Below, piece by piece: positions 3,550 to 63,866 of a DNA stretch of 64,000 nt. The translations under genes were made by a program, and so were the position numbers. The DNA comes from Gongronella butleri (Eukaryota; Mucoromycota; Mucoromycetes; Mucorales; Cunninghamellaceae): assembly GCA_025201375.1 (NCBI GenBank), contig JAIWZP010000016.1, forward strand, positions 310,001 to 374,000, written 5' to 3'. The notes below the pieces were generated by a model. It made no database searches, had not been told where the DNA came from, and saw only the letters and a list, made by a program, of their open reading frames with translations. Positions within the stretch are counted from its first letter, which is position 1; every line of letters starts with the position of its first letter.

Positions 3550-5583
3550 ATGACCAACAACAACAAAAACGACTCAGCACCTCCTGCGCCTGCTCAGGCA
3601 CCGCAGGCACCTCCCTTTGAAGAAAAATCCGACGAGAGAGTGTTTGATGAGGCGATCGAGGTTGCCGAAGAGGCCCTACGCCATCCGCATCACTTTGACA
3701 GACCCATCCAACGTGTCATCGTTGTAGGTGCGGGCCCTGCTGGTGTAAGTTCAAATAGAGTTGCTTTGGAAACAGGGGCCATTGGTCGTACAAAAAGCCC
3801 AAATATCTCTGTTTTCTATTTTTTTTTTAAAAAAATGTGTGATAGCTACCTGCAGCCAAGGCTTTGCGCGATATGGGGTTGCATGTGACCGTTTACGAGC
3901 GTGCCGACACGGTGGGCGGCAACTGGTAAGAAAAAAAAAGAGGAATCCAGGCATATGGAAACGAAAAAAAGAGAGTTTCACGCGTGATCGATCGACAGGG
4001 CCTTCTCGGAGCACACGCAGGCGTTCCCACGCGTGCCTGAGTCCGAGGCGGACCAGGACGACCTGCGCAGCACCGGTTATCCGCCGGCGTCGCCGCCTGG
4101 GCCATCGCCAGTGCCGCTCTCCGACGACGTGCACGCGTTTCTGGCCAATCACCATCAACCACCGACGGCCTGCTACTTGGATTTGTTCAACAACACGCGC
4201 GTGCCCATGCTCGGGTCGCTGGAAATGGGCTGGCCAGCAGACACGCCCGAATATGTGCCACACACGTGCGTGCACCAGTATTACAAGGATTTCGCCGCCA
4301 AATTTGATTTGCTGCCGCTCATCCACTTCAACACCAGCCTTGACCACGTCAAAAAGGCCGACGATGGCCACTGGCACTTGGCCCTCACTAAGGTAACGCG
4401 CCTCGTAAACAATCAAGTCCAATTTGAAGCTGTAAACGATACCGCGGACGCCGTCGTCATTGCCACCGGCGAATACCACTCGCCCTTTGTCCCGCACGTT
4501 GCCGGCCTGCAGCAATTCCAAGCAGCCTTCCCGGAACGCGTCTTGCACACGAAACAATTCCGCGATCCCCATGATTACACAGGAAAAGTAAGCAAAGATA
4601 CGAAAAAAATATACAAAACATGTCGCTCACCTCCCTTTTTTTTTTTTTTTTTTTTTTAAAAAAAGCGTGTTCTCGTGATCGGCAGCAATGTGTCGGCAAT
4701 GGACGTGTCGCGTCTGGTGGAAAAGACAGCAGCCAAGGTGTATTTGTCGTTCCGTGGCGAATTCGAGTCGCCGGTGCCAATTTTGCGTGTTGTGCGCGGC
4801 ACACTGCCACCCACCGTGGAAAAAAGGGCATTCGTCCAACAATTTGGCACGTTGGACGCCAATGGCAACCTTGTGGACGACACCATCCATCTCGTCGATG
4901 GCACCGCCTTGGAAAACATTGACGTCGTTATTTGGGCCACCGGATATAGGAATAAGCTGCCGTTCCTTGGCGATATGCGTTCCGACGACGTAAAAGAGCT
5001 CACCACGCCCGGCAAGGTCGTCTTTAACACAAAGGGCCATTGGGGAATTGCCAATCTGTTCAAGTAAGACGCACACGCACAAAAAAAAAAAAAGACAGAG
5101 AAAGCGACGCGTCTCTTATCTCTTTTTACGTGATTTTTTTTTTCCAGGGACACGTTTGTAATGTCTGAGCCGTCACTGGCGATTGTGGGCTGCCCGTCGT
5201 TCATTCCGACGACCATGACTTTTGACACGCAGGCACGCGCTTTGGCGCGCGTTTGGTCCGGCAAGGCCACGCTGCCAACGCCTGAAAAGATGCTGGAGTT
5301 GCGCACGCGCCATGGCCCGCCGTGCGCGCCGTTTTTGATCGATGGCCCTGCCGATCGCAAGCGTGCCATGGCGACACTTGCATGGCTCAACCACCATGCT
5401 GAACACGCGCAATTGCACGACGTGCCGACCCTGGTCGGCCCGCCAAAGGAATGGGACCCGCTCTGGGAGCAAAGCTTCGTCACCTGGAACGAACACATCA
5501 AGGACCAGGAGCGCCAGGCAAAGGAACTTAGACAAAAGCGTCTGAACGCGAAAATCAACGCCACCGCGACCGTCCCTGCTTAG
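3550..5583 (+). CDS. Flavin-containing monooxygenase (FMO family)
   Basis: Predicted 565-residue protein from exons 3550-3744, 3846-3925, 3999-4587, 4666-5063 and 5148-5583, all with GT-AG introns. The family uses FAD and NADPH to oxygenate soft nucleophiles such as sulfur or nitrogen in small molecules. Visible: the N-terminal FAD Rossmann motif VIVVGAGPAG (glycines at 60, 62, 65), followed in exon 2 by an ADP-binding strand ending in YERADTVGGNW. An FMO-type stretch LHTKQFRDPHDYTGK follows at the end of exon 3. The second Rossmann segment RVLVIGSNVSAMD is at 289-301, and WATGYRNKLPF lies in the C-terminal half. The first splice join restores the FAD motif continuity (GPAG then LPAAKALRDMG), which supports it. 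An N-terminal extension of about 50 residues precedes the FAD motif. Substrate cannot be told from sequence. Confidence 0.9.
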
Positions 5584-54833: not shown

Positions 54834-55508
54834 ATACTCTGATGGCGAAATTTGGACGAAAATAAAAAAAATGCGCGAGCTGTCACTCGTGCTTCCGATT
54901 AATCCTTTGCTTTGCAGCATTCATATTGCAATAAAAATCATGTTGTTGAGACTACAACCTCATTGATACATGTATCATGTGGCAATGCACCACCACGACG
55001 CCCGCAATATGATATGTAATAATTTAAGAGAAACTCCGGTTCATCGACGTTTTTTTTTTTTTTTTTACTATTCTTTCTAGACAATCTGCTTGCCCATGTC
55101 TTTGATCGGATGCATGCCCGATGATCAAAAATGCACCAATTGACAAACTGTGTCCAGTGCAAGTTGTAGTACTGTATGATAAGTCGATAATGACCTGGTC
55201 ATGCCGATAAAATTCGAAAAAGGGTGCATTTGGTGTTTTTTTGCATTTTCTCGTCGTCCACCCTGCCTATCTGCTCCAATTTCTCTTGAATAATAACTTA
55301 CCCACAAGCCAGAGCTTTACAGTATCAATTTTAAGTTTTCTCAGCAATATTCATTTGGATAGCAAAACGCGCTCGTTAGCGGCAATCCAGAGCCAAATCG
55401 ATTCCCAGGATGGACCAGGGATGCAAGCATGCTCTGTAAAGTTCATCTTCTCTACTCTCCCCGTCGCTCCTTTACTGTACCTACAGTACAGTACAGTACA
55501 GTACAGTA
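54834..55508. other. Intergenic region left of the large TIR element
   Basis: The first part is the 3' flank of the WrbA-type gene. At 55,479-55,508 there is a (TACAG)n microsatellite that ends exactly at the element boundary; its last TA (55,507-55,508) is the left target-site copy. A GTACTGTATGATAAG word lies near 55,170. No gene seen. Confidence 0.5.
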
Positions 55509-55688
55509 CAGAGTTTCCACTGTTCATATGCGCGTCGTTGAAAAGTTTTTGCACGCAAAGGTGGTTTGTTCACCCGCGAATAAAAAATAAAATGCACGCA
55601 AACACCTTTCATTGGCGCGCACCGCATCATCAGTCCACGCAAACTTTACTCTCGATGGGCGCCAATTGAATTTTTAGGGCACGCGAAT
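55509..55688 (+). repeat. Left terminal inverted repeat of the large element
   Basis: 180 bp, paired with 62,890-63,069 reversed. By direct comparison only two positions differ: the base after CTGTTCAT and one in AAGGTG(G/A)TTT. The innermost part (AGGGCACGCGAAT) reappears inside the element at about 56,900, next to transposase copy 2. Confidence 0.93.
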
Positions 55689-55758
55689 ATTTATTTCGTA
55701 CAAAAAAAAAAAAAAAGAAACTAGAGTATGGCTTCACTCATTGGCGAGGCAGCGGCGG

Positions 55759-56637
55759 TCAAAGAAGGTGAGACTGTCGGATCCACCCCTCACAGTCCTG
55801 GCGCGTCACCGTCTTGGCAACCTCTCGCATCCGCGGTATTATCACGTAATCCAGATCATCGGGACGCGATAGACGATGCATATTAGCCTCTAATTTCGCC
55901 CACAACCCTTCAATCGGATTGCGGAATGGGCTGTTCGGAGGCAGGTACAAAGGCTTGAAGCCGCGCTTGGTGATGATCGCGCTCACGCTCTTACTCTTTT
56001 GGATGGGCGTGTTGTTCATCACGACGTAGCGGTTCTTGATGCCTGCTTCCTCTAGATTGCTGAGGACGTCGTCGATGAAGGTCAAAAAAAGCTCCTTTCT
56101 GGAATCAGTAGCTTTGATCTTGCGTTTCACCGGGAGCGTCACCGTGCTCACATTGCGAGTGACTTCTCTCACCTTGAGGATGCCAATTTCACAAATGGCT
56201 CCTAGAATCACGACATTCTGGGCCATGGGTGTCGCCTCCCGTTTCATCCATCCAAATCTATCCAAATTGAAGCCCGCGATGTCCAGGAACACGCAGGTGC
56301 GCAGAATATCCAAGTCTTGCAAAGCACGCCAAGTATCAATAACATCTGTCGAGATTTGCACTTCCTTGTAAGTCAACCCGCAAGTTTCTCGCAGAACTGT
56401 CTGCAGCGCAGGCAGAGAGATCGTCACTGGCGGGAATCCCGCTTCCAAAGCAACCTTGGCTTCCTCCAAAGTACGCGTAGGATCATCTTTAAAAAAGGCC
56501 AGCAAAAACTCCACCAATTCTTCAACAACCTCACAGGTGTTCACGAGAGATTCGACTTCAGCGTCTACGGCCGCCGCCGCAAATGAGACATTAGAAACAA
56601 AAGCTGCTCCACAATTAGAGACAGGAGGTGATGTCAT
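55759..56637 (-). pseudogene. Tc1/mariner/IS630-type transposase, copy 1 (degenerate)
   Basis: An open frame of about 292 residues from the Met at 56,637. The DDE core is recognisable: CVFLDIAGFN (first Asp kept, next residue Ile instead of Glu), VVMNNTPIQKS (the second catalytic Asp replaced by Asn) and NPIEGLWAKLEA (third acidic residue). Compared with copy 2 it lacks about 150 residues near the N-terminus, including the DNA-binding helix-turn-helix. It also has a 2-base loss near 55,780 that shifts the frame so the protein stops early (WIRQSHLL). Loss of the Asp and of the DNA-binding domain argue against activity. TATA-like sequence lies 64 bases upstream. Confidence 0.8.
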
Positions 56638-56941
56638 AGTGAATAATGCAAAAAATAAATAAAATGCAATGAAAACGATCAAAATGCAAAAAAAAAGTCG
56701 TTTTATAAAGCTTGGCCAAGCGCGGTAGAAATCCGCGCTCACAATCTCGGCATTCCGCCTTTTTTTTTTTTTTTTGTATTCCGCCTTTTGTCCACGACGT
56801 TCAACCTTGTGTTCACCTCGTTCGACCCACTTGATCTCCCGCGTTTGACCCATTTGATCCCCGCGTTCGATCTGTGTAACAAAAGCCAATTTAATTCCCA
56901 GGGCACGCGAATGTTTATTGCGCACAAAAAAAAAAAAAAAA
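56638..56941. other. Spacer upstream of transposase copy 1 with degenerate GTTCGAC repeats
   Basis: Contains the TATA box at 56,701-56,707 and, at about 56,790-56,880, three or four loose repeats of the type CGTTCGACCCACTTGATC / CGTTTGACCCATTTGATC / CGTTCGATCTGTG. These resemble the start of the large array upstream of copy 2. At 56,890-56,920 it has a copy of the inner TIR end (AGGGCACGCGAAT), pointing to an internal duplication of a transposase module. Confidence 0.6.
56701..56707 (-). promoter_or_regulatory. TATA box of transposase copy 1
   Basis: TATAAAA on the minus strand, 64 bases before the Met at 56,637. The same arrangement is found before copy 2. Confidence 0.5.
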
Positions 56942-58366
56942 CTACAGCATGGTTTCCTTGGCGATGCAGCGGTCAAAGAAGGTGAGACTGTGGCGGATCC
57001 ACCCCTCACAATCCTGGGGTGTCACCTTCATTGCAGCCTCCTTGATCCGTGGCACCAGGGAATCTTGGTCGTCCAGAGGTGATCTGCGAACGCCAGCCTT
57101 CACCTTCGCCCAGAATTCCTCAATCGGATTGAGGAATGGGCTGTAGGGGGGAGGTACAAAGGCTTGAAGCCGCGCTCGGTGATGACCGCACTCACGCTCT
57201 CACTCTTGTGGATGGGCGCATTGTCCATGACGATGTAGCGGCCCTTGATGCCAGCCTCCTCCAGGTTGCTGAGGACGTTGTCAATAAAGGTCAAAAAGTC
57301 CTCCGTTCTCGTGCCTGCCTTAACTTTGCCTTTTTTGCCATTTGCGAGAGTCACCGTGGTCGTCTTTGGAGTGCGCATTGTCAAGCTGACAATCCCAAGT
57401 TCGCAAATTGCCCCAAGGATAGTGATGTTTGGGCCCTTGGAGGCCTGTACCAGAACCTTGGGAGTTGTGCCGCGCTTTGACCACCCAAATCCACGTCGCA
57501 GGTGAAGATTGAAGCCGGCTTCGTCCAGAAATACGCACGTACGCAAGAAATCCAAGTCTTGCAAGCCACGCCAAGTAATGATTGCAGTGTACCGAAGCTC
57601 GATTGTCCTCTCTGAGTTTCTGGCCTCAGAAATTGGCTGGACCTTCTTGAGCGACATCATACAGTGTTGCTTCAGATGCTTCTGTAGCCCAGACAGAGAG
57701 ATCGTCAATGGCAAGAATTCCGTCTCCAGAACAGCCTTCGCCTCCGCCAAAGTGCGCGTAGAATCTTCGTCAAAAAAAGCCACCAAGAAGTTCGTATGTT
57801 CTTCGAACAGCTTTCTTCTACCGCCGTTGTTATGCACGCGACCGGGAATTGGAACACATTGTTGCTCGTCAAGGTAATATTGTCGGACATATCCTTGAGC
57901 AGTACGTTCCTTGATGCCGACTTTCCTCCCGGCCGCAGCAGCTGCATACCCTACATAAAACATGCAATTCCAAAATGAGTGTTGCTATTTTTTTTTTATT
58001 TTACTGTATTTTACCTTTAGTTGTGACCAAATCAATAAGGTCCACGACTTGGGCTGCAGTGTAAACGCGGTATTGGCCACGTTTAGACGTCAGCACGAGA
58101 TTTTCGTCATTAGAACGTTTGTCCTTGACGACGCCTTGCATAAATTCATTTCGAGGAATAAAATTGTCGCGATATATCTTGAGTGTCACCAATTCACCTC
58201 GTGTGGAATCCTTCTTGGAAGGGACTTCTTCAGCAGCCTCAAAAGTGCTCATAAGTGATTCTACTTCATCGTCCATGGATGCGAGCGAGACAACAGATTC
58301 CACTTCAGAATCATAGATTATTTCATTTGTTGGCGGGCGTAATCCCCAAACGGAACGTGATGTCAT
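56942..58366 (-). pseudogene. Tc1/mariner/IS630-type DD34E transposase, copy 2 (frameshifted)
   Basis: Two exons, 58366-58015 and 57950 downward, with a GT-AG intron whose join restores the HTH (DLVTTKG then YAAAAAGRKVGIKERTAQGY). The N-terminal third precedes the HTH; the core has CVFLDEAGFNLH, IVMDNAPIHKS and, 34 residues after that Asp, the Glu of NPIEEFWAKVKAG, i.e. a DD34E triad. The frame breaks at a run of six C near 57,150: the upstream frame ends early at about 57,100, while the proper continuation (YSPFLNPIEEF to the TAG at 56,942) lies in another frame. This is a one-base loss in a homopolymer, either a real disabling change or a sequencing error. If the latter, this would be the active transposase of the element. 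Confidence 0.82.
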
Positions 58367-58421
58367 GATGAAAAAAAAAAGCAAAGTAATCGATCAAAAT
58401 GCAAGTGAAAAAGGAAGTCCG

Positions 58422-58428
58422 TTTTATA
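58422..58428 (-). promoter_or_regulatory. TATA box of transposase copy 2
   Basis: TATAAAA on the minus strand, 56 bases before the Met at 58,366. The tandem array begins about 170 bases further upstream of the gene. Confidence 0.5.
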
Positions 58429-58599
58429 TTGGAATACCAAACGCTGTGGAAATCTGAGCTCAATAAGCACCATCGCGTCGTTTGACCTAAATGCCCACCG
58501 CGCTCTACCCCTTTGACCTTGCGGTTGACAAAATGAGCGGCATTTGATCTGCCTGCCCAACACGTCCGACATGTGTGTCCCAGCGTTTGATTTGTGTGA

Positions 58600-60095
58600 C
58601 CCGACATTCGACTTGTGTGACCATCGCGGTCAAGTCAATTGTCGGCGTTCGACTCAATTGCCCGGCGTTCGACTTACATTGTCGGCGTTCGACTCAATTG
58701 CCCGTCGTTCGACTTACATTGTCGGCGTTCGACTCAATTGCCCGGCGTTCGACTCAATTATCGGCGTTCGACTCAATTGCCCCGCGTTCGACTCAATTGC
58801 CCCGCCCGGCGTTCGACTCAATTGCCCCGGCGTTCGACTCAATTATCGGCGTTCGACTCAATTGCCTGGCGTTCGACTCAATTGCCCGCGTTCGACTCAA
58901 TTGCCTGGCGTTCGACTCAATTGCCCCGCGTTCGACTCAATTATCGGCGTTCGACTCAATTGCCCGGCGTTCGACTCACTTTGTACCGCGTTCGATTCAA
59001 TTGCCCGGCGTTCGACTCAGTTGTCGGCGTTCGACTCAATTGCCTGGCGTTCGACTCAGTTGTCGGCGTTCGACTCAATTGCCTGGCGTTCGACTCAATT
59101 GACCGGCCTGGCGTTCGACTCACTTGTACCGCGTTCGACTCACTTTGTACCGCGTTCGACTCAATTGCCCGGCGTTCGACTCAATTGCCTGGCGTTCGAC
59201 TCAATTGCCCGGCGTTCGACTCAATTATCGGCGTTCGACTCAATTGCCCCGCGTTCGACTCACTTTGTACCGCGTTCGATTCAATTGCCCGGCGTTCGAC
59301 TCAGTTGTCGGCGTTCGACTCAATTGCCTGGCGTTCGACTCAATTGCCTGGCGTTCGACTCAGTTGTCGGCGTTCGACTCAATTGCCTGGCGTTCGACTC
59401 ACTTTGTACCGCGTTCGACTCAATTGCCCGGCGTTCGACTCAGTTGTCGGCGTTCGACTCAGTTGTCGGCGTTCGACTCAATTGCCTGGCGTTCGACTCA
59501 ATTGTCGGCGTTCGACTCAATTGCCTGGCGTTCGACTCACTTTGTACCGCGTTCGACTCACTTTGTACCGCGTTCGACTCAATTGCCCGGCGTTCGACTC
59601 AGTTGTCGGCGTTCGACTCAATTGCCTGGCGTTCGACTCAATTGCCTGGCGTTCGACTCACTTTGTACCGCGTTCGACTCAATTGCCCGGCGTTCGACTC
59701 AGTTGTCGGCGTTCGACTCAATTGCCTGGCGTTCGACTCAATTGTCGGCGTTCGACTCAATTGTCTGCGTTCGACTCAATTGCCTGGCGTTCGACTCAAT
59801 TGCCCGGCGTTCGACTCACTTTGTACCGCGTTCGACTCAATTGCCCGGCGTTCGACTCAGTTGTCGGCGTTCGACTCGATTGCCCCACGTTCGACTCAAT
59901 TGCCCGGCGTTCGACTCAATTGCCCCGCGTTCGACTCAGTTGTCGGCGTTCGACTCAATTGCCTTGCGTTCGACTCGATTGCCCCACGTTCGACTCAATT
60001 GCCCCGCGTTCGACTCAATTGTCGGCGTTCGACTCACTTGTCTGGCGTTCGACTCACTTGTCTGGCGTTCGACTTGTGCGACCACCGCGTTTGAG
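58600..60095 (+). repeat. Tandem array of 72 GTTCGACTC units (19-21 bp), pol III B-box-like
   Basis: By hand count, 72 copies of GTTCGACT or GTTCGATT between 58,647 and 60,074, spaced 19, 20 or 21 bases depending on the spacer. Common spacers are AATTGCCCGGC, AATTGCCTGGC, AGTTGTCGGC, AATTATCGGC and ACTTTGTACCGC. The invariant core fits the B-box consensus GWTCRANNC in about 69 units; the others have GTTCGACTT. Spacer types recur in the same order, forming higher-order blocks of 4-7 units. The edges (58,476-58,640 and 60,060-60,095) are diverged units such as GCGTTTGATTTGTGTGACC. It lies in the divergent promoter region between transposase copy 2 and the HTH gene. All three forward frames are open across it. 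Confidence 0.95.
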
Positions 60096-60139
60096 CTGTT
60101 TGCTTGCTTACATTTAGCCAACTGGGTTTATCGCTAATG

Positions 60140-60148
60140 TATAAAAAA
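60140..60148 (+). promoter_or_regulatory. TATA box of the HTH gene
   Basis: TATAAAAAA 52 bases before the ATG at 60,192, the mirror image of the transposase promoters on the other side of the array. Confidence 0.45.
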
Positions 60149-60165
60149 ATGGGACTCATTCATCT

Positions 60166-61010
60166 CTCTTTTTCATCTTTGGTAGAACATCATGGTGAAA
60201 TATTCACAACAATATCGGCAAGCATTGTATGATAACAAAGTTGCTAATGGGAAATCGATCACGACGGTTGCCGCTGAGCTTGGGATTTCGAAATCTACAG
60301 CAACGCGCCTATTTCATCAAGCTGCTCGAGAAAACACAGGAAATGGCGGTGGCACCAACTCTGCTGCTGGGGAACGCAACACACCCAAAGAAAGCTCAAA
60401 CGCCAACGGTCAATTGGTACACTACACCAGGCGGGTTAACCGCAATTGTAAAAAAAAAAAAAAAGGGGCTCATTCCTCGCTCTTTTTCATCTTTGGTAGA
60501 AATATTCACAAGAGTATCGACAAGCATTATATGATAGTGTAATTGCTGCTGGGAAATCGATTACGACGGTTGCCGCTGACCTTCGGATTCCAAAATCTAC
60601 AGCCACGCGCCTATTTCATCAAGCTGCTCGAGAAAACACAGGAAATGGCGGTGGCACCAACTCTGCTGCTGGGGGACGCAACGCACACAAAGAAAGCTCA
60701 AATGCTAACGATCAATTGGTACACTACACCAGCCGGGTTAACCGCCATGACAGAAAAAAAAAAGTTGCGCTCAGTACCTCCCTCTTTCTCATCTTTGGTA
60801 GAACTCCAAGATAAAATATTCACAAGAATTTCGACAAGCACTGTATGGTGATGTAATTGCTACTGGGAAATCAATTGCGACGGTTGCCGCTAAGCTTCGG
60901 ATTCCAAAATCTACAGCAACGCGCCTATTTTATCAAGCTGCTCGAGAAAAAGCTGGACATGACGGTGGCGCCAGCCCTGATATTAGGGGAGGCAACACGT
61001 GCAGAAAAAA
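60166..61010 (+). repeat. Three tandem copies of a 303-313-bp HTH-encoding module
   Basis: Each copy begins with a CTCTTTTTCATCTTTGGTAG leader (ending at 60,185, 60,498 and 60,801) and continues with an HTH-coding segment (GGGAAATC, ACGGTTGCCGCT, AAATCTACAGC, CTATTTCATCAAGCTGCTCG blocks). Copies 1 and 2 are the most alike to their ends. Copy 3 diverges after the HTH. The start codon is present only in copy 1. Confidence 0.85.
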
Positions 61011-61389
61011 AACGAACAACCAGCACAGCAGAATCCAAGCCTCTCTTGCAGATTGCGCAGAAGTTGATCATGTATCTAAAATCTTTTCATCACTCCAAAT
61101 TTCGCGCCACTATTACGGCACAACGACCGACGACCATTCGACGAACGAAAATCGAAAGTTGATATCGGCGGGCACCCCGCCAAGGCAGGTCCGTGTTGAT
61201 TATCTTGTACGTTACCTCAATTCGCTCGAACGACAAGTGATCAACATTGATGATTTTGTCGAACACCTCAAACAGTTGAACCCACAACCCATTGCCACAT
61301 GCCATCATTTAGCGATCCGAGTAGTAAAATTACGAGCAGAAAGACGAATGTTCTTCACACCTTATTTTTTCGCCTACTTGCAGAAATAA
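60192..61389 (+). CDS. HTH-domain protein of the element (splicing uncertain)
   Basis: The start at 60,192 opens with MVKYSQQYRQALYDN and a homeodomain-like HTH (SITTVAAELGISKSTATRLFHQAA) of the kind found in transposases and resolvases. Read without splicing, this frame ends at 60,542 after 116 residues. A GT donor at 60,448 and an AG acceptor at 61,050-61,051 would join it in frame to the long frame ending at 61,389 (LVRYLNSLERQVINIDDFVEHL, then HHLAIRVVKLRAERRMFF), giving about 197 residues. That 3' frame is also continuous with HTH copy 3, which has no ATG. Function unknown; a transposition accessory or regulator is a guess. Exon structure is inferred, not shown. Confidence 0.45.
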
Positions 61390-61442
61390 GATGTAAAAGT
61401 TTTAGAATAAAACGCATTTGAAACGTAGTGGTTATGCTGGAT

Positions 61443-61505
61443 GGTCAGAGCGATGTTTGTCAACATGGCAGAGCATCATATCAGGAATTGAAGCAATTGA
61501 GCCCG

Positions 61506-61542
<37 letters not shown>

Positions 61543-62131
61543 GTTTTACTATGGGCCCGGCATGCGAGCCCGGCAGGTTTTTTTTTCTTCCAAATTTGGT
61601 TTGTGTTCAAGCGCCAACAAACTCCTATGCCCAAGGCCGGCGTGGGTCTTGTGTGATTTTACGACGTTTGGCGTGGTCCGAGACGTATTTTTGACATTGG
61701 CGACACTGAACATGTCACAAACAATCATATTAATGAGCATTTTTGTGTGGCGCTGGCGGGTGGTGCTCTCAGTGGTGTGTTTTTGATTTTTGGCTTCGTT
61801 CACGACACATTTTTGTTTGCGACGCTGCTGAAGTCGAACCAATGGCGCTACAATCGAGCGCGCACGCGTATGACTGGCCACTGGATCACCACGTACAACG
61901 CGCGCATCGTCAGATCCATCCACCGAGGCGCGCGGCCATTTTAAGGGCCAAAGGACGTCAAAGACGCGTCGCATCAGCGAGTGCTGACAAATCGGCGCTT
62001 GAACACAGGTCCAATATGGAAGAAAAAAACCTGCCGGGCCCATAGCAAAGCCCCAAAGTAAGGCCCTTTTTTTCCGTTTGCTTCAATTCCCGAAGTAATG
62101 CTCCGTCATGTTGTCAAGCATCGCTCTGACC
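61443..62131. mobile_element. Nested inverted-repeat structure, possible non-autonomous element
   Basis: The left arm 61,443-61,616 and the right arm (about 61,985-62,131) are imperfect inverted copies. They share the terminal GGTCAGAGCGATG, TTGTCAACATG/TTGACAACATG, GGAATTGAAGCAA, CTATGGGCCCGGCA, GCAGGTTTTTTT and TGTGTTCAAGCGCC. The left arm carries a T run of over 30 and a small GAGCCCGG duplication. No flanking target duplication is evident. The central 370 bases have no recognised gene. It may be a MITE-like insertion inside the larger element, or a regulatory hairpin. Confidence 0.6.
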
Positions 62132-62299
62132 CTTTAGCAGATCACCGCGTCACGATTGAATGCAGTGTCCGTACCTTATTCGCACACCAACGTTACGGAT
62201 ACACTGTGTAACAACGAATTATGGTATGACAGTGGGCTATATGAAGACACAGCTGTCGTGGGATGTCATTTTTACTATCTTTTCTTTATTTTGTTTCCA

Positions 62300-62872
62300 A
62301 TGATGATGAATCCTAGAAAATATTATCCATTTGGTTACGGAACCCAGGAGACCAACTCTCTCCTGGACTTAATGCACATGGAGAGAGACTTGGAGCTCCA
62401 GCAACACGAGGATAGGGCGGCTGAGTTGCAGTGGGCTCAAGCACACCCGATGATGATGTTGGATGAGTTGAACATCGAGGCGTCGTCAACAGATACCGAC
62501 GCGATGCAAGACACGATGCAGCAGGAGGCAACCATCGCGCCGCCCACAGAAGAGCCGAATGCGCCGCTTCGCCCAACGGCACCGCCAACTATTGACTTGG
62601 CATACAGACCAAGCCGAAGGCAGCCGAAGCAGCCGGTATGCCCGCGGCCACTCGTGTCGCGGGCAATTTCCCCAAAGCAAAAGTACACTATCTGGGAAAC
62701 CGTCTACCTGAAGAAGCGTACGAGCGTAGTCGCTTCTCGTGTAGCTAAGGTCTCGCGCTCAACTGCCCACAAGTACACGTGGATGTTCGATGGTAATCCC
62801 CCCATGGCGGAAATTGCATTGTACAATCCCCAAGTGCATGCCCAGCTCTTGCAACAGATTCAAAAAAAATAG
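62300..62872 (+). CDS. Small HTH-like protein next to the right TIR
   Basis: 190 residues from the first of three consecutive Met codons (62,300). The N-terminal two thirds are acidic, Gln/Met/Pro-rich and probably disordered. The C-terminal region ISPKQKYTIWETVYLKKR followed by SVVASRVAKVSRSTAHKYTW looks like a helix-turn-helix of the transposase type. It ends 18 bases before the right TIR. No catalytic core is present. The frame continues upstream without an ATG, so an earlier exon is possible. It may bind the terminal repeat or be a detached DNA-binding half of a transposase; both are guesses. Confidence 0.55.
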   Translation: MMMNPRKYYPFGYGTQETNSLLDLMHMERDLELQQHEDRAAELQWAQAHPMMMLDELNIEASSTDTDAMQDTMQQEATIAPPTEEPNAPLRPTAPPTIDLAYRPSRRQPKQPVCPRPLVSRAISPKQKYTIWETVYLKKRTSVVASRVAKVSRSTAHKYTWMFDGNPPMAEIALYNPQVHAQLLQQIQKK

Positions 62873-62889
62873 TTGAATAAAAAAATAGA

Positions 62890-63069
62890 ATTCGCGTGCC
62901 CTAAAAATTCAATTGGCGCCCATCGAGAGTAAAGTTTGCGTGGACTGATGATGCGGTGCGCGCCAATGAAAGGTGTTTGCGTGCATTTTATTTTTTATTC
63001 GCGGGTGAACAAATCACCTTTGCGTGCAAAAACTTTTCAACGACGCGCAAATGAACAGTGGAAACTCTG
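62890..63069 (-). repeat. Right terminal inverted repeat of the large element
   Basis: Inverted partner of 55,509-55,688, with two differences over 180 bp. It ends AACAGTGGAAACTCTG followed by TA. Confidence 0.93.
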
Positions 63070-63866
63070 TATCTGTTTGTTAGTAAATTTGAATTACTGT
63101 AAAAATCACGGGTTGACTAGACCACCGGTGTCGAGCAATGGAGCAAATCGCCATTAAATACAGTAATATGATACTGTATTTTGTTGAAAAAGTGGATCTT
63201 CTCTGTCAATTTTGGCCATCCATCGGTGAATCTGGTCTCATTTTTTGATACTGTACATATTCAGCAGCTGCTTGTACAGTAATACTTTACAGTATCATAA
63301 AAGCGCCTTGGGTCTTTCTGTCCGTTGTACTGTATCATAGAAAGATTGAGCCCGAAAGCTGATCCAATGTTTGATTGACTTGTTGTAAAGTGTATGATAA
63401 ACGCTCAAATTTCGTCCATCTGGCAAACAACCCAGCCATTGGAAATGGACGCTCGATCGTGTCTCTTTTGACCGTTGGAAGTTACATCGCGATCTCCTCA
63501 ATTTTTCAACAGCCTGTGCAGAATTTGTGAAAATGACGAAAATCCGCACCACCTGCAAATACTACTGTAAACGGTACCGAGAAACCGGACTGGAAGGAGC
63601 ACAGGCGTGTGATTTCCATGCCTCTGAACAATGATGAATCCCATTTTTAAGTGCATAAGGCTTTTGGTGATGAGTTGTCATTTTACAGTATGTGTGTGCT
63701 GCGGCAAGCGCGCTGGTTGTCATTGTTGTCTAGAGATCAAATTGGGGCAAATTGTAAATGGAGATAAAAGGGCTGCCCTTCAATTCCAATTTTTGGTCTT
63801 TTTTTTTCGTCACTCTTGCTTATTTTTTTCGACAGCCCTTCCTTCCCTTCTCGTGCGCCGTGGACC
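63070..63866 (-). repeat. Dispersed repeat family R1, copy D (reverse) and upstream region of the last gene
   Basis: About 63,100-63,560 resembles the reverse complement of 30,350-30,720. Shared blocks include GGGTTGACTAGACC, CTCTGTCAATTTTGGCCATC-like, GAATCTGGTCTCAT, GTGTCTCTTTTGACCG and CAGAATTTGTGAAAATGA. Several TACTGTATCATA-type words are inserted in it. The last 100 bases are pyrimidine-rich and are probably the promoter of the gene starting at 63,867. Confidence 0.5.

Follow-up and report, generated by a model that had tools for sequence, protein, structure and literature searches.

A large, multi-gene Tc1/mariner-like element of Gongronella butleri with two predicted helix-turn-helix proteins and an oriented repeat array

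Tc1/mariner elements are textbook minimal transposons, with one gene between short ends, a usual length of 1–2.5 kb and, it is thought, a need for one protein only. A 64,000-nucleotide (nt) stretch of the 33.0-Mb genome of Gongronella butleri (Mucorales), comprising positions 310001–374000 of contig C19 and referred to here as the window, raises the question of whether such an element can also take the form of a larger system with several components. Positions 55507–63071 of the window form a unit of 7,565 bp that is bounded by terminal inverted repeats (TIRs) and contains a transposase gene (Tnp2), a degenerate duplicate of it (Tnp1), a long tandem array and two genes, HTH1 and HTH2, whose products have predicted helix-turn-helix (HTH) domains. 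The same layout occurs repeatedly in the genome, and we consider it probable, on balance, that the unit is a multi-component Tc1/mariner element whose accessory proteins, judging from their sequences, bind the array or the ends and assist or regulate transposition. C-numbers denote contigs of the same G. butleri genome, with C19 standing for the window copy.

The two TIRs (left, 55507..55688, plus strand; right, 62890..63071, minus strand) are each 182 nt long including the outer TA, 99% complementary to each other and separated by 7,201 nt. Each starts TACAGAGTTTCCACTG, and the element termini read TACAGAG...CTCTGTA, in agreement with an earlier reading of the window made without database searches (the sequence-only reading), which had described near-identical TIRs with TA flanks. 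That reading had offered a new large element type and a recent composite as explanations, and had proposed a genome search with the TIR for further full copies. Such a search located at least 43 TIR places, a 182-bp TIR query yielding 40 scored of 53 candidates and a diverged TIR query adding 3. We delimited 19 two-ended elements, 4 gene-bearing and 15 shortened and gene-less. All 19 have TA at both outer ends and start TACAGAGTTTCCA[CT]TG at both ends. The gene-bearing copies (C19, 7,565 bp; C18:321800, 6,591 bp; C69:115241, 5,207 bp; C78:657443, 7,502 bp) share a common order of Tnp2 on the minus strand, an array, and HTH1 and HTH2 on the plus strand; at 5,207–7,565 bp with three to four genes each, they depart from the usual short (1–2.5 kb), single-gene Tc1/mariner form. 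The gene-less elements measure 632–2,794 bp and contain no full gene, and 6 of the 15 keep short ends of Tnp1 and HTH2. Six further TIRs lack a partner in the stretches examined (C7, C83, C23, C66, C89 and C32, the last with its sequence not retrieved).

C69 and C78, at separate loci, are 97.4% identical over 4.7 kb. On C7, the first 2,501 bp of the window unit are matched at 99.3% before the contig ends, and on C83 its last 896 bp are matched at 99.9%, followed by 2.0 kb of other sequence to the contig end; the two fragments may represent one copy or two. Because of the C69/C78 pair and these near-identical fragments, we take the unit to be a genuine repeated element and not an accident. Together with the shared layout of the four two-TIR copies at separate loci, they bear out the proposal of a new large element type: the arrangement is not unique and the TIRs do not enclose only unrelated contents, though 15 of the 19 delimited elements are gene-less.

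An accidental composite would instead consist of two short Tc1 elements whose outer TIRs happen to surround unrelated DNA. Two joined transposase units are indeed suggested by the tandem transposases and by a 28-bp remnant at the seam of the Tnp1 and Tnp2 units that resembles the inner edge of the TIR (56885..56912, plus strand; 86%, repeat I5). This internal duplication, with its TIR-like piece, is the composite feature that we found. The C19 TIR pair is nevertheless near-identical, a repeat search of the C19 unit recovered TIR-like sequence inside it only as short pieces (I5 and I13), C69 and C78 have no second transposase copy, and four gene-bearing copies occupy distinct loci. On this last ground, which largely refutes an accidental origin, we rejected it and regard it as highly improbable.

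The gene set is also found outside the delimited elements. A fifth locus (C33:31–34 kb) carries the same genes, with nucleotide identities to C69 of 94% for Tnp2 and 90% for HTH1–HTH2; the HTH1/HTH2 matches are split, and no recognisable TIR surrounds the Tnp2/HTH1/HTH2 genes there. Open reading frames (ORFs) that by eye resemble a piggyBac-type transposase (L061:4767-5929) adjoin this copy. At C67:622058-625065, four Tnp2 fragments (57–82%) and an opposite-strand HTH1 fragment (51%) lie 3 kb apart, an arrangement that fits a decayed relative with the same divergent layout. HTH2 relics with one stop each occur at C44:49251-49514 (72% to the C69 type, with two transposase matches no more than 5 kb away) and at C89:225799-226559 (78–85% to the C18 type, beside a TIR without a partner in that stretch).

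Both transposase regions belong to the DDE_3 family, matched above the curated Pfam cut-off in minus-strand ORFs 57100-57963 and 55759-57009. Tnp2 (56942..58366, minus strand) is a DD34E transposase gene of two exons with a predicted GT-AG intron at 57951-58014; NCBI model P0010 contains the corresponding junction in C19. In C18, removal of one predicted GT-AG intron gives a protein of 449 amino acids (aa) with a D-D-E triad and 34 residues between the second D and E. The window Tnp2 is frameshifted ahead of the catalytic E, and the C7 match breaks at the same residues. In C18, C69, C78 and C33, exon 2 is uninterrupted by stops throughout its match; its ratio of nonsynonymous to synonymous substitution rates (dN/dS) between C18 and C69 is 0.10 (p 5e-42). 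Tnp2 is a strongly conserved gene. Residues 89–150 of C18 Tnp2, aligned across 76 rows of the family, match the profiles of HTH1 and HTH2; the transposase's own HTH has no match over the Pfam cut-off.

Tnp1 (55759..56637, minus strand; 292 aa here) arose by tandem duplication, recorded in direct repeats 1.2–1.28 kb apart (D6, D7, D10-D13, D15 and D16). In a tree of 25 of the 120 listed transposase homologues and 6 rows of our own (Tnp2_C19 cut before the frameshift, Tnp1_C18 cut near its end), Tnp1 sits on a long branch (1.88) in a cluster with Tnp2 of C18 and C19 (99/97), and our six rows separate as a group from the remaining 25. The organism-named matches among the 120 listed of 534 homologues are all Mucorales fungi. 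Tnp1 lacks the first HTH. The second catalytic D, present in the 29 remaining rows, is N in both Tnp1 rows. The C18 and C7 copies of Tnp1 are shortened, which makes a present function doubtful, and Tnp1 has no counterpart in C69 and C78, which form one lineage. With the D-to-N change in the two rows compared and the shortening in C18 and C7, we rejected Tnp1 as a working transposase. Between C19 and C18, dN/dS is below 1 for both genes without reaching significance (p 0.14–0.24) in comparisons that covered exon 1 plus exon 2 as far as the window frameshift (Tnp2) or the first 258–262 codons only (Tnp1). The sequence-only reading had described two DD34E transposases; two DDE_3 ORFs are present and Tnp2 is of the DD34E type, but Tnp1 is D-N-E and the window Tnp2 is frameshifted.

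On the plus strand, an HTH module is repeated threefold from 60143/60197 on, with spacings of 302 and 314 bp. The triplication noted earlier is thus real as a repeat, but it reads as a single spliced gene: the three modules are out of frame when read straight through, and two predicted introns of 82–84 nt per copy restore the frame at both junctions, giving HTH1 proteins of 343 aa in C19 and 351 aa in C18. In the window, HTH1 (60192..61389, plus strand) would comprise exons 60192-60416, 60500-60718 and 60802-61389 and encode three tandem HTH domains. NCBI model P0124 has the first C19 junction and departs afterwards, and the C69 version of HTH1 has a single HTH. The additional HTH-like gene of the sequence-only reading corresponds to HTH2 (62300..62872, plus strand), which encodes 190 aa from the ATG used in our comparison, or extends over ORF 62156-62872 if TTG is allowed, and has a C-terminal HTH. 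Both genes are under moderate purifying selection between C19 and C18 (HTH1, dN/dS 0.51, p 1.3e-4; HTH2, dN/dS 0.45, p 3.9e-5).

Profile comparison relates both proteins to one part of the transposase. Its first HTH is matched at 96.6% by HTH1 and 94.1% by HTH2, compared with 13.7% and 8.3% for its second HTH and 0.1% for its catalytic part. Pfam scans detected no catalytic domain in HTH1 or HTH2, and gave a sub-threshold match of HTH1 to a resolvase HTH (E 0.043). A profile search with HTH1 recovered one relative outside the genome, the metagenomic protein P0122 (70% identical, 100% query coverage), whose predicted structure contains a three-helix HTH at residues 6–49 (block predicted local distance difference test score (pLDDT) 80–89). 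The prediction for HTH2 likewise shows a C-terminal HTH (block pLDDT 85–92); the rest of both models is mostly of low confidence. A PDB sequence search gave weak matches only, including the Sleeping Beauty transposase (2m8e, E 0.31). The profile comparison and the predicted folds back the earlier suggestion of two extra DNA-binding proteins.

The long tandem array seen in the sequence-only reading occupies 58635..60074 (plus strand), between the divergent Tnp2 and HTH1 genes, and consists of ~72 copies of the 20-bp unit TCAATTGCCCGGCGTTCGAC over 1.44 kb. Of the 72 occurrences of CGTTCGAC in the window, 70 lie in the array; 100 shuffles contained 2.05 on average and 6 at most. Array ORFs of up to 516 aa were rejected as genes, without a family search, since a tandem repeat has several open frames. 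The motif CGTTCGA is present in all 19 elements, 2–74 times each, against 0.07/kb in window positions 1–55000. When elements are oriented by their genes or gene remnants where present, and otherwise by TIR type, the motif lies on one strand throughout, save for a single stray copy in C19 and another in C18. Its retention in gene-less elements would support, rather than prove, a role in cis.

The TIRs contain a second set of repeats. In C19, CACGC[AG]AA occurs four times at both ends, at TIR positions 46, 89, 130 and 174, and an 8-mer was present three times in 0 of 1000 TIR shuffles, in a test whose word length was picked after the repeat was seen. Sleeping Beauty has ends of the inverted-repeat/direct-repeat type, and by likeness to these the CACGC[AG]AA copies are candidate transposase sites.

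Several observations weigh against a multi-component element of this kind. No empty site that would prove a TA duplication was found in the elements' own genome for the C19 or C69 insertions. The central array of C69 and C78 has a different unit, their CGTTCGA arrays lying nearer the ends, and, since the gene-less elements are related by descent, retention of the motif does not amount to 15 independent events. Among the 38 element ends, only 17 have all four CACGC[AG]AA copies exactly; the others have one to three. For HTH1 and HTH2, dN/dS values near 0.5 point to no more than moderate constraint, and in each gene one antisense frame is low as well (HTH1 0.47, p 2.8e-5, slightly below the sense value; HTH2 0.56, p 2.2e-3). 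HTH profiles can match one another because HTHs are alike, and the profile comparison was run without an outside HTH family as control; the Pfam HTH matches of both proteins all fall below the curated cut-offs, and Foldseek with HTH2 returned generic HTH proteins only (E 0.29 or more). A search with C18 HTH2 gave no match outside this genome. Finally, no HTH gene was detected beside transposase relatives at 54–58% identity (their surroundings themselves were not read), except for the stop-containing HTH2 relic at C44:49251, which lies 4–5 kb from one of them.

The last two observations would also be expected if the HTH genes and the array were passengers, that is, captured host or older transposon DNA lying between Tc1 ends with no transposition role, and the absence of the genes from 15 of the 19 elements indicates that they are not needed in cis. 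We nevertheless consider this unlikely. Lineages with a transposase identity of only 66% and a synonymous divergence (dS) of 2.8, near saturation, share both genes and their order; both genes are under purifying selection; and both proteins are similar to the transposase's own first HTH.

For a multi-component element, we envisage that Tnp2 binds the TIR repeats, cuts at TA and mobilises the elements. HTH1 and HTH2 would be DNA-binding proteins without catalytic activity, akin to the transposase's first HTH, and may bind the CGTTCGA array, the ends or both; the strongest candidate for the array is HTH1, which has up to three HTHs. Their binding could regulate the divergent Tnp2/HTH1 promoter and help to join the ends. 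Since its Tnp2 is frameshifted, the window copy probably depends on transposase provided in trans, if it moves at all. Tnp1 appears to be a decaying duplicate that may once have acted as an inhibitor.

The HTH proteins might instead act solely as repressors, holding the element in check by self-limitation or by control of its copy number, with the array serving as operator. The array lies between the divergent Tnp2 and HTH1 genes, a short degenerate array is found upstream of Tnp1, no catalytic domain was detected in HTH1 or HTH2, and Tnp1 lacks one catalytic D, all of which would suit repression; mariner elements are described as self-limiting in the part of PMC3687335 drawn on here. The gene-less derivatives, however, keep the motif with no promoter to regulate, a pattern better suited to a DNA-level role, though mere descent may account for it. 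Repression alone seems to us somewhat improbable, a little less so than a passenger origin. By analogy with TnpA of En/Spm, we favour a combined role for HTH1 and HTH2 as regulators and helpers of transposition.

The copies appear to have exchanged parts. Between C19 and C18, dS is 0.03 for Tnp2 exon 2 (before the frameshift), 0.30 for HTH1 and 0.78 for HTH2, and identity falls sharply near window position 58200; from these unequal values and the drop, segments have probably been exchanged between copies. The comparison of the genome with the window unit left out matches lying wholly in the array. At C100:30574, the sole copy of its group compared, the TIR types appear swapped between the ends. 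The C78 element (L051:444-7945) looks like one of the C69 type with an extra left-side array block of the kind seen in gene-less elements, and is perhaps a recombinant of a gene-bearing and a gene-less copy. If the accessory proteins act in transposition, segment exchange among copies in one genome would provide a natural experiment on the co-evolution of such proteins and their sites.

A palindromic segment lies between HTH1 and HTH2 (61435..62139). Its interior recurs at several other places in the genome, and C18 has related arms with a different interior at this site; as the interior is a dispersed repeat, we rejected the segment as part of the conserved core. The other sequence on C83 (L032:3349-5351), which includes a ~150-bp repeat, stands where the palindrome and HTH1 would be expected. 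The right flank of the window unit (63072-63221) is part of another dispersed repeat, whose genome-wide matches start at the element's edge (query position 151–153), and the insertion therefore lies beside or at the end of that repeat. An Rfam scan of the window at gathering thresholds gave no match.

The nearest described element that we found, judging from excerpts of the papers cited here and below, is Tc1-MP1 of Mucor piriformis (PMC9977792), with which the G. butleri elements share a DD34E Mucorales transposase (434 aa versus 449 aa in C18) and long TIRs (141 versus 182 bp). Compared by description only, Tc1-MP1 differs in having a single ORF in 1,688 bp, as against 5.2–7.6 kb with Tnp2, HTH1, HTH2 and arrays. 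Species named in the same paper (Mucor saturninus, Circinella minor, Parasitella parasitica and Rhizopus) are among our listed transposase homologues. Tc1-OP1 of the yeast Ogataea parapolymorpha, at 5,659 bp called the largest Tc1/mariner element reported in 2023, is another fungal Tc1 element of unusual size, with TIRs of 169 bp and additional coding sequence; it has one 1,155-aa ORF of the DD40E type with an unidentified serine-rich extra domain, and an array is not described in the sections of the paper drawn on (PMC9977792). Three of the four gene-bearing G. butleri copies (7,565, 7,502 and 6,591 bp) exceed that reported maximum, and the fourth measures 5,207 bp.

Multi-ORF relatives are known elsewhere. 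The ciliate Tec and TBE elements combine a DD34E transposase with further ORFs; Tec has TIRs of ~700 bp and one ORF in complement orientation, and TBE genes have dN/dS well below 1 (PMC7325037, PMC4724952). Their accessory genes, found in ciliates only, encode a site-specific recombinase (Tec) or 22-kD and zinc-finger/kinase ORFs (TBE) and are not described in these excerpts as transposase-like HTH proteins. No recombinase, zinc-finger or kinase Pfam match of this type was found in the HTH ORFs scanned, beyond the sub-threshold resolvase-HTH match. Elements of algal viruses also carry a mariner transposase and two further proteins between TIRs at TA target sites; as cargo they carry an endonuclease and a methyltransferase or Fanzor, and they are described, in the text available, as single-copy. 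Among titles and abstract openings of the open-licence literature, which cannot prove absence in print, we found no Tc1/mariner element with HTH accessory genes and none from Gongronella. The gene-bearing G. butleri copies carry two apparently non-catalytic proteins that resemble the transposase's first HTH, together with an oriented array. If these proteins act in transposition, a regulated system of several components has evolved within Tc1/mariner.

En/Spm of the CACTA type offers a functional parallel, by analogy only: a transposase is accompanied by a separate DNA-binding protein, TnpA, whose targets are cis-acting subterminal repeats (PMC2613891). The two systems belong to different superfamilies, En/Spm having a 3-bp target duplication and, in the element of that paper, 13-bp TIRs (PMC2613891); the G. 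butleri elements end TACAGAG...CTCTGTA rather than in CACTA termini, and we claim no homology. We offer, as a tentative proposal that we hold at clearly less than even confidence, that copies of the transposase's first HTH gave rise to separate genes, with one expanding to three HTHs, and that their proteins read the oriented array of ~20-bp repeats to control or assemble transposition, as a convergent counterpart of TnpA and the subterminal repeats of En/Spm.

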